A stretch of 33,648 nucleotides of DNA, taken from assembly GCA_016180805.1 (NCBI GenBank), contig JACPAM010000274.1:1-33648 (forward strand). The letters are read 5' to 3'. A program made the position numbers and the translations under genes. The notes under the pieces were generated by a model. It was not told where the DNA came from, did not search any database, and worked only from the letters and a program-made list of their open reading frames with translations. Positions 12,807 to 24,676 of this stretch are shown one piece after another. The first letter of the stretch is position 1. Each line of letters begins with the position of its first letter. Origin of the DNA: Deltaproteobacteria bacterium (GTDB lineage Bacteria; Desulfobacterota; Binatia; UBA9968).

Positions 12807-12837
12807 TGAAATGGAACCAAGCATGCAACTCGACGCA

Positions 12838-12908
12838 ATGCAAAATGAAAATTGTAAAATGCAGAATGCAAAATTTTTCCTTTTTCAATTTGCACTTTGC
12901 AATATGCC
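12838..12908. repeat. Imperfect inverted repeat of TGCAAAn words in the tsf-pyrH spacer (element A)
   Basis: Left arm AATTGTAAAATGCAGAATGCAAAA pairs imperfectly with the reverse complement of TTTTTCAATTTGCACTTTGCAATAT. Confidence 0.6.
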
Positions 12909-12911
12909 TTT

Positions 12912-23265: not shown

Positions 23266-24096
23266 ATGAGACCTCCACTTGTGGTCGGCAACTGGAAAAT
23301 GCACGGGACCCAAACCGAAGCCTATGCCCTGGCTCGCGCTATCGTCCGGGGATTCAATCATCTCGCGTCGTCCCTCGACTTCGCTCGGGACGACCCCGAG
23401 CGACGCTCCCGCGGCCGACGCCGCCGCGCGCGTCGAGGGGTCGAGGTCGCCCTCGCCCCTCCTTTCACCGCGCTCGGCGAGGTCGGCAAGGCCGTCCGCG
23501 GAAGCCGGATCGGGTTGGCCGGCCAAAACGCTCACTGGGAAAACGAGGGCGCTTTCACGGGCGAGATCAGCCCGACGATGCTCCGCGCGCTGGGCTGCAG
23601 GTTCGTGATCGTCGGCCACTCGGAGAGGCGACGACTTTTCAACGAAGGCGATGAGGCCGTCGCGAAAAAAATGCTAAGCTGCGCGCGCGCGGGTCTCAGG
23701 CCGATCCTGTGCATAGGAGAAACGCTCCCGGAGCGACATAAGGGTCTCACGTACCGGGTCCTTTCCCGCCAATTGCGGGCCGGATTGAAGGGGTTAGGCA
23801 AAAATGGTATAGAAAACTTCGACGTCGCCTACGAGCCCGTCTGGGCGATCGGGACGGGCCGCAACGCCTCCCCGGAGCAGGTGAGCGAGGCGCACCGCCG
23901 GATCCGGCGGATGCTTGTAGCGCTCTGCGGAAAGAAACTTGCCAAGGAAATCCGCATTCTCTATGGTGGCAGCGTGCGCCCGGATAACGCGCCGCAACTG
24001 GCTGCGGCAGCCGAAGTCAACGGATCGCTCGTAGGAGGGGCGAGCCTCAACGCGGAGGACTTTCTTAGTATCCTTTGTTGTTTTGTTTCGGCCTAG
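23266..24096 (+). CDS. tpiA: triosephosphate isomerase carrying an unusual ~26-aa N-terminal insertion
   Basis: LVVGNWKMHGTQTEA, VIVGHSERRRLF, VAYEPVWAIGTGRNASPEQ, ILYGGSVRPDNA. Insertion NHLASSLDFARDDPERRSRGRRRRARR before VEVALAPPFTAL. Confidence 0.95.
   Translation: MRPPLVVGNWKMHGTQTEAYALARAIVRGFNHLASSLDFARDDPERRSRGRRRRARRGVEVALAPPFTALGEVGKAVRGSRIGLAGQNAHWENEGAFTGEISPTMLRALGCRFVIVGHSERRRLFNEGDEAVAKKMLSCARAGLRPILCIGETLPERHKGLTYRVLSRQLRAGLKGLGKNGIENFDVAYEPVWAIGTGRNASPEQVSEAHRRIRRMLVALCGKKLAKEIRILYGGSVRPDNAPQLAAAAEVNGSLVGGASLNAEDFLSILCCFVSA
23367..23394. repeat. Palindromic repeat element inside tpiA
   Basis: GTCGTCCC-TCGACTTCGCTC-GGGACGAC, perfect 8-bp arms; encodes SSLDFARDD (complement strand reads VVPSEVEG). 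Confidence 0.7.
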
Positions 24097-24108
24097 GACT
24101 TGAGACCG

Positions 24109-24218
24109 CCATTGCAAAGTGGAGAGTGCAAATTGCAAAAGTCAAAATGAAGATGAATTCCGTTTGAGCCCGTTTTCTATTTTGCATTTTTCACTTTGCT
24201 CTTTGCATTTTGCAATGG
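24109..24218. repeat. ~43-nt-arm imperfect inverted repeat of TGCAAAn words between tpiA and secG (element B)
   Basis: CCATTGCAAAGTGGAGAGTGCAAATTGCAAAAGTCAAAATGAA versus reverse complement of the right arm CCATTGCAAAATGCAAAGAGCAAAGTGAAAAATGCAAAATAGAA. Confidence 0.8.
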
Positions 24219-24238
24219 AGCGATAAAAGGTTCACAAA

Positions 24239-24583
24239 ATGATTACTCTGGTAACCGTTGTGCATATCCTGGTGAGCATCGGCCTGATCTTGGTCGTGCT
24301 CCTCCAGACCGGAAAGGGCGCCGACATCGGGGCCGTCTTCGGCGGCTCGAGCTCGACCATTTTCGGCAGCAGCGGTGCGGGGAACTTTCTAACCCGTGTG
24401 ACCACCGGGATGGCGATCGTGTTCATGATCACCTCCCTCACCTTGGGCTATTTTTCCGGCAAGAGGCCCTCCGCCAGCATTTTCGACCGCGGCAGCGCCG
24501 GCGTGGAACAGCCCGCACCTAAACCCGCTCCTGCCCCTACTCAACAGGCGCCCGCTCCTAGCCCTCGGCCTCAGAAACCATAA
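24239..24583 (+). CDS. secG: preprotein translocase subunit SecG
   Basis: VHILVSIGLILVVLLQTGKGADIGAVFGGSSSTIFGSSGAGNFLTRVTTGMAIVFMITSLTLGY. Confidence 0.95.
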   Translation: MITLVTVVHILVSIGLILVVLLQTGKGADIGAVFGGSSSTIFGSSGAGNFLTRVTTGMAIVFMITSLTLGYFSGKRPSASIFDRGSAGVEQPAPKPAPAPTQQAPAPSPRPQKP

Positions 24584-24587
24584 GATG

Positions 24588-24667
24588 AGTTTTGAGTTTT
24601 TAATTTTGAGTTTTGAGTTAGAGGAGCCGAGAACCAACTAAAAACTTGAAACTCAAAACTAAGAACT
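24588..24667. repeat. Imperfect inverted repeat of AGTTTTn words between secG and tRNA-Leu (element C)
   Basis: AGTTTTGAGTTTTTAATTTTGAGTTTTGAGTT versus reverse complement of right arm AGTTCTTAGTTTTGAGTTTCAAGTTTTTAGTT. Confidence 0.75.
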
Positions 24668-24676
24668 TTTTGATGT

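Follow-up and report, generated by a model that had tools for sequence, protein, structure and literature searches.

A dispersed family of palindromes built from seven-base words and a probable insertion between tpiA and secG in a deltaproteobacterium

The 110-nt element between tpiA and secG (24109-24218) is probably one copy of a dispersed palindromic DNA element that is non-autonomous, inserted here in this lineage only. We read it as part of a broad class of degenerate, bipartite 'heptad-word palindromes' that exists in several word dialects and resembles in kind the heptamer arrays published for Xanthomonas and Nostoc. This explanation was built on the dispersal of the family, homologous arms with variable loops, an empty orthologous site, the preference for certain gene junctions, the absence of strand bias and of RNA covariation, and the presence of several word families at common junctions. 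From these observations we infer that the element moves. Coordinates refer to the window, the whole stretch of 33,648 nucleotides that was analysed (Table 1).

Table 1. Features of the tpiA-secG region and related palindromes in the window.
Feature	Positions	Strand	Remark
tpiA, gene upstream of the element	23266..24096	+	
12 nt from the tpiA stop codon to the element	24097..24108	no strand	missing from the empty site of G001
Left arm (arm 1)	24109..24148	+	CCATTGCAAAGTGGAGAGTGCAAATTGCAAAAGTCAAAAT; 7-nt words, the last being the family's GTCAAAAT
Loop	24149..24178	no strand	found in the tpiA-secG copy alone; without inner palindrome (p 0.55)
Right arm (arm 2)	24179..24218	+	ATTTTGCATTTTTCACTTTGCTCTTTGCATTTTGCAATGG
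secG leader with AAAGG	24219..24238	+	empty site of the same genus: just ACA from tpiA stop to secG ATG
secG, gene downstream of the element	24239..24583	+	
Second TGCAAA-family member in the window	12836..12911	+	nearly without loop; tsf/pyrH junction, both genes on the minus strand
Palindrome of another word set (GAGTTTT / AAAACTC)	24586..24668	+	interval between secG and tRNA-Leu(gag)

Two arms of 40 nt, 80% complementary, enclose a gap of 30 nt. The spacer from the tpiA stop to the secG ATG (24097-24238) has 142 nt, 110 nt of which are the element. secG starts about 21 nt past the right arm and is preceded by GAGCGATAAAAGGTTCACAAA. The plus strand of 24109-24220 folded as RNA with -45.1 kcal/mol (shuffled sequences -23.3 +/- 3.4 kcal/mol, z -6.4), and 0 of 200 shuffles folded as well. 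The minus strand reached z -2.9; this gap between the strands is due to G-T versus A-C mismatches. The hairpin that a preliminary description had placed between the two genes is therefore real. Its arms pair imperfectly as described and are 40 nt long instead of about 43 nt; the length of 110 nt, given there for the spacer, is that of the element. Windows in the arms passed the threshold at lag 7 and failed at lags 8 and 9, so that 7 nt remains from a word length given as 7-9 nt. Rfam matches in the window were limited to tRNA. Compared with the same-genus TpiA, the tpiA product has about 23 extra residues in frame (window 23352-23440), and the DNA that codes for them is the palindromic stretch TCGTCCCTCGACTTCGCTCGGGACGACC; judged by its sequence, it looks like a palindromic element within the open reading frame.

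The element is one of a family, as had been assumed. A search of its own genome yielded 58 matching pieces at 41 places (our count), and a covariance model, a step already proposed in the preliminary description, found further copies. Together with finds beside fetched copies, the family occupies at least 50 places. The consensus of 40 paired copies extracted is CAATGCAAAATGAAAATTGCAAATTGCAAAAGTCAAAATG - loop - CATTTTGCATTTTTCAATTTGCACTTTGCATTTTGCATTG, and each arm has five to six TGCAAAA-like words of 7 nt. Arm columns are homologous from copy to copy, and the consensus of arm 1 differs from that of arm 2 (GTCAAAAT versus TGCAAAAT). Since the arms differ at fixed columns, the copies derive from one imperfect ancestral palindrome; the column-wise alignment and the arm differences argue for copies of one unit and against independent slippage. 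Except in the single paralogous pair L035/L036, loops are unrelated among copies; they range from 0 to about 100 nt. The four longest of 19 loops hold whole palindromes of other repeat families; this nesting accounts for these four only. A widespread palindromic repeat, GTCATCCTGAGC..GCGAAGGATCT, is nested in the TGCAAA loops of L027, L014 (3384-3559) and L097. A long repeat with GACCGAGGGGAGCGCGAGCGAGGCTGCGGAC / GGCCGCAGCCGAGAGCGCGCTCCCCGAGGGAGC arms is located at gene junctions in L162 (G001), L176 (G015) and the host-genome stretch L213.

Most copies are located in tight operon junctions. Neighbouring genes are co-directional for 38/39 copies, compared with 244/324 of all junctions (p 2e-4), and convergent for none; the 39 are the copies with both neighbours called, and the gene calls are our own, hexamer-based, so single cases may be off. 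After removal of the element, the spacer is at most 66 nt in 27/33 copies, while co-directional spacers of up to 60 nt contain 7% of the intergenic bases. This bias is not general to period-7 arrays, with 20/27 co-directional versus the background of 244/324.

The relatives provided the empty site. In G001, of the same genus, just 3 nt separate tpiA from secG, and every other relative examined lacks the element at this junction. By sequence comparison, the tpiA-secG copy is probably a recent, lineage-specific insertion. Palindromes in relatives were scored on both strands, and counts are those of the matches listed. At least tens of copies are present in several related genera, with high copy numbers in G005, G006, G008, G015 and G038; among the matches listed there were none in G007, G013, G019, G022, G025 and nine genomes of family f3. 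The earlier suggestion of a replicating intergenic element fits these data: at least 50 copies in the genome, tens in related genera and an orthologous junction that is empty in relatives.

The flanks of 20 other copies were looked up in five relatives. Several of these junctions, sites 1, 2 and 3 among them, are empty there, and others have hairpins of unrelated words, including GATTTTA, GGTCAAT and AGGCAAT. At site 5, G005 has GATTTTA words and each of G001, G008 and G023 has TTGAACG-type words of 9 nt; site 12 has AGGCAGT, AGCTGAT, GTAGGCA or GATTTTA words, and site 14 AGTCAAT or AGGCAAT words. With identical scoring, a period-7 insert was present in at least one relative at 13/18 element junctions versus 3/17 controls (p 0.002), and at 11/18 when only other word sets were counted (p 0.015). 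Control junctions were empty in the host genome (1/20 was dropped as it held an element); the junctions were tallied by hand on the basis of the scores, and for some control pairs the call as empty came from contiguous alignments alone. The shared junctions may reflect replacement in place, permissive junctions or hot spots of insertion.

Some copies are orthologous. Upstream of aspS, the same insertion is found in three genera (L023 of G000, L187 of G015, L193 of G005). Between G000 and G015, the element, its loop and a 14-nt leader are about 95% identical, compared with about 72-75% in the adjacent coding DNA; in G005, the arms are kept and the loop is different. Conservation above that of coding DNA looks like constraint or local transfer. 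At another site, a 7-nt indel in an arm separates the orthologues of G000 and G005. A single copy, L024 (about 2030-2132), is flanked by an 18-nt near-perfect duplication of the junction (GAGGCGTGGAGACGATAG / GAGGCCTGGAGACAATAG), which is single in G001 and G015.

The seven-base period extends beyond this family. The evaluation covered 365 kb of the host genome with 176 spacers of 50-600 nt and used a window threshold of at least 16/21 matches. Lag 7 reached the threshold in 23/176 spacers, lag 14 in 13, lag 21 in 3 and any other lag in at most 4; shuffled spacers gave 0 at lag 7 and almost never reached the threshold. The word sets TGCAAAA, GAGTTTT, GGTCAAT, AGGCAAT, ATTCGCC, AAATCTC and AGCTGAG coexist in the genome. 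Runs of three or more G, capable of G-quadruplex formation, are absent from TGCAAAA and the other word sets seen. Constraint on the TGCAAA word is uneven: departures from the consensus among 296 cells numbered 3 at position 6, 8 at position 4, 41 at position 5, 52 at position 3 and 78 at position 7. Such a pattern does not arise from plain neutral decay of inserted copies, and together with the conservation at aspS it is a point against the insertion of a mobile element as the best explanation.

The arms are also found far from the host. An exact 22-nt arm motif, TGCAAANTGYAAAAGTCAAAAT, was present in more than 110 genome-contig stretches among the matches listed, with about one to two matches expected by chance (rough estimate). 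Bacterial carriers are deltaproteobacterial MAGs, Phycisphaerales, Nitrospiria, Patescibacteria, Omnitrophota, WOR-3 and a Bacteroidota MAG; archaeal carriers are Methanophagales/ANME-1 and Methanosarcinales. Single phylum assignments are provisional because MAG contigs can be misbinned. The motif was followed by an inverted arm in 53/82 cases, compared with 5/240 random windows. Carrier contigs contain other period-7 arrays, 19 in 127 kb of Phycisphaerales and 17 in 101 kb of Nitrospiria; the same contigs have 0-2 arrays at other lags, lag 14 excepted. No lag-7 array occurred in 200 kb of Escherichia coli, and none in the stretches of G007 (40 kb) and G029 (80 kb); plasmid and phage collections gave no match. 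In the Nitrospiria MAG H41-bin024 (L236-L298), the copies have a common loop (CATGGCC..GGCCATACC), in contrast to the variable loops of the host genome.

In an unlikely alternative, the words would be sites arrayed for a DNA-binding protein with 7-bp steps, in the role of a nucleoid protein, a regulator or an uptake signal, and would be kept for this function after dispersal. This would account for the nearly invariant word positions 4 and 6 beside the variable positions 3, 5 and 7 in both arms, and binding to double-stranded DNA predicts the observed lack of strand bias. However, one genome has many unrelated word sets, each of which would require a protein or tolerance, the sites are lineage-specific, and the neighbours seen are varied housekeeping genes.

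Less likely again is a selected intercistronic RNA hairpin that stays in its position through sequence turnover and serves as an attenuator, a processing site or a stabiliser of the mRNA. The strong fold, the position within operons, the differing hairpins at common junctions across genera and the conserved aspS copy agree with such a function. However, pairing in 28 aligned copies comprised 75.8% of cells versus 76.5% with the 3' letters re-dealt, and pairs altered on both sides numbered 8 versus 9.6 in shuffles, so that the compensatory substitutions asked about in the preliminary description did not appear. Column-wise pairing was about equal to expectation. The transcript strand was the more stable one in 17/38 copies (Wilcoxon p 0.54), and element orientation showed no preference relative to transcription (17 against 21). 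Without a covariation or orientation signal, the arms appear to match by descent from a palindrome and not by copy-by-copy correction, which speaks against the 'family of RNA hairpins' suggested before; the lack of the element at tpiA-secG in all relatives examined also counts against a selected hairpin. Structured regulatory RNAs were rejected for the lack of compensatory changes and, in the window, of curated RNA families other than tRNA. An intrinsic terminator was dismissed since the tpiA-secG spacer has no terminator-like site and the copies are located in tight junctions of co-directional genes and never between convergent ones; the earlier statement that it is not a simple terminator holds as far as tested.

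Local origin is the least likely of the three: polymerase slippage by 7 nt and fold-back copying would create immobile palindromes, and like words would arise repeatedly. In its favour, period 7 outweighs every other lag in several lineages, a 7-nt indel distinguishes the G000 and G005 orthologues, and PMC4692102 reports a proposal that explains heptamer repeats by slippage linked to the polymerase footprint. Slippage may be the source of the 7-bp period and of word changes; it leaves unexplained the arm columns and the asymmetry of arms 1 and 2 that dozens of unlinked copies share, across phyla. The lack of arrays in 200 kb of E. coli is a further point against it.

For the dispersed, mobile element that we prefer, the unit would consist of two arrays in inverted orientation, with about six degenerate 7-bp words in each, and of a loop that can be exchanged freely. 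Copies would spread whole into tight co-directional gene junctions, where insertion leaves both neighbouring genes intact. A trans-acting enzyme or polymerase-based copying may act on the palindrome or on the 7-bp-phased words, and an RNA hairpin in the operon mRNA would be a by-product and not a selected function.

Known mobile palindromes share part of these properties. The bacterial MITEs Correia, ERIC and RUP are palindromic insertions of about 100 bp near genes. The present element differs from them, with no target-site duplication, parent transposase or conserved loop detected. A MITE of a DDE transposon agrees with the inverted arms and was rejected since the flank-to-flank match was little better than that of shuffled flanks, L024 excepted. 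Among the fetched copies, neither an autonomous copy nor a mobilising gene was seen; like the lack of a general target-site duplication, this also counts against the mobile element that we prefer. The surroundings of Y1 genes (20 stretches, 66.9 kb) contained 0 period-7 arrays in the lag test and one weak model match at the end of L373. Y1 genes and copy numbers are uncorrelated: G020 has 0 Y1 genes and 11 model matches, G013 has 7 Y1 genes and no model matches. REP/REPIN sequences with a RAYT agree as dispersed extragenic palindromes and were rejected, as the Y1 genes lack flanking repeats and the counts do not correlate. To our knowledge, REP/REPIN sequences have no 7-nt word structure. They are likewise short, dispersed, extragenic and non-autonomous palindromes, with the Y1-type RAYT (PMC2817692, PMC3116915). 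The view that the element belongs to no named REP/ERIC class was borne out as far as tested, by Rfam matches to tRNA only and by unlinked Y1 transposases.

Heptamer arrays themselves are already known. Arrays of GGGAATC or GGGGA(C/T)T in Xanthomonas and Nostoc consist of degenerate 7-nt words, in which some positions are fixed and others free, and have no known function; they are intergenic, mainly between co-oriented genes, with 70-75 inverted pairs per Xanthomonas genome (PMC4692102). Head-to-tail 7-nt units in intergenic DNA are found here as well, and degenerate words and co-oriented neighbours are common to both. In contrast to the single G-rich word set, variable array length and minority of inverted arrays reported there (PMC4692102), TGCAAA elements are A/T-rich, nearly always bipartite and inverted, and have homologous columns, and the host genome has several word sets with junctions in common. 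In the SPADE survey, tandem heptamers were the commonest intergenic period in prokaryotes, without a clear clue to function (PMC6344855); period and location are alike, whereas the survey concerns tandem repeats and the present arrays are palindromic, dispersed and junction-sharing. TAACTGA repeats of Beggiatoaceae are heptamers upstream of start codons and scattered over distant phyla; they are direct repeats of one word with a single inverted case and no bipartite palindrome (PMC4679880). No description of the bipartite, multi-dialect, junction-sharing form was found in the open-licence literature.

Tentatively, heptad-word palindromes might be an element class of bacteria and archaea in which a common mechanism writes or moves inverted arrays of 7-bp words and every genome has several dialects that take each other's place at the same operon junctions; such a class might explain much of the 7-nt excess in prokaryotic intergenic DNA. 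Here at least, dispersed palindromes have the period-7 arrays as their arms and apparently insert at operon junctions. Unrelated word sets use common junctions across genera, and some sampled genomes are without period-7 arrays. The statistical oddity of a 7-base repeat excess thereby becomes a set of insertions that have orthologues and empty sites and can be compared among close strains. The elements add spacer and a hairpin to otherwise conserved operons such as tpiA-secG and tsf-pyrH.
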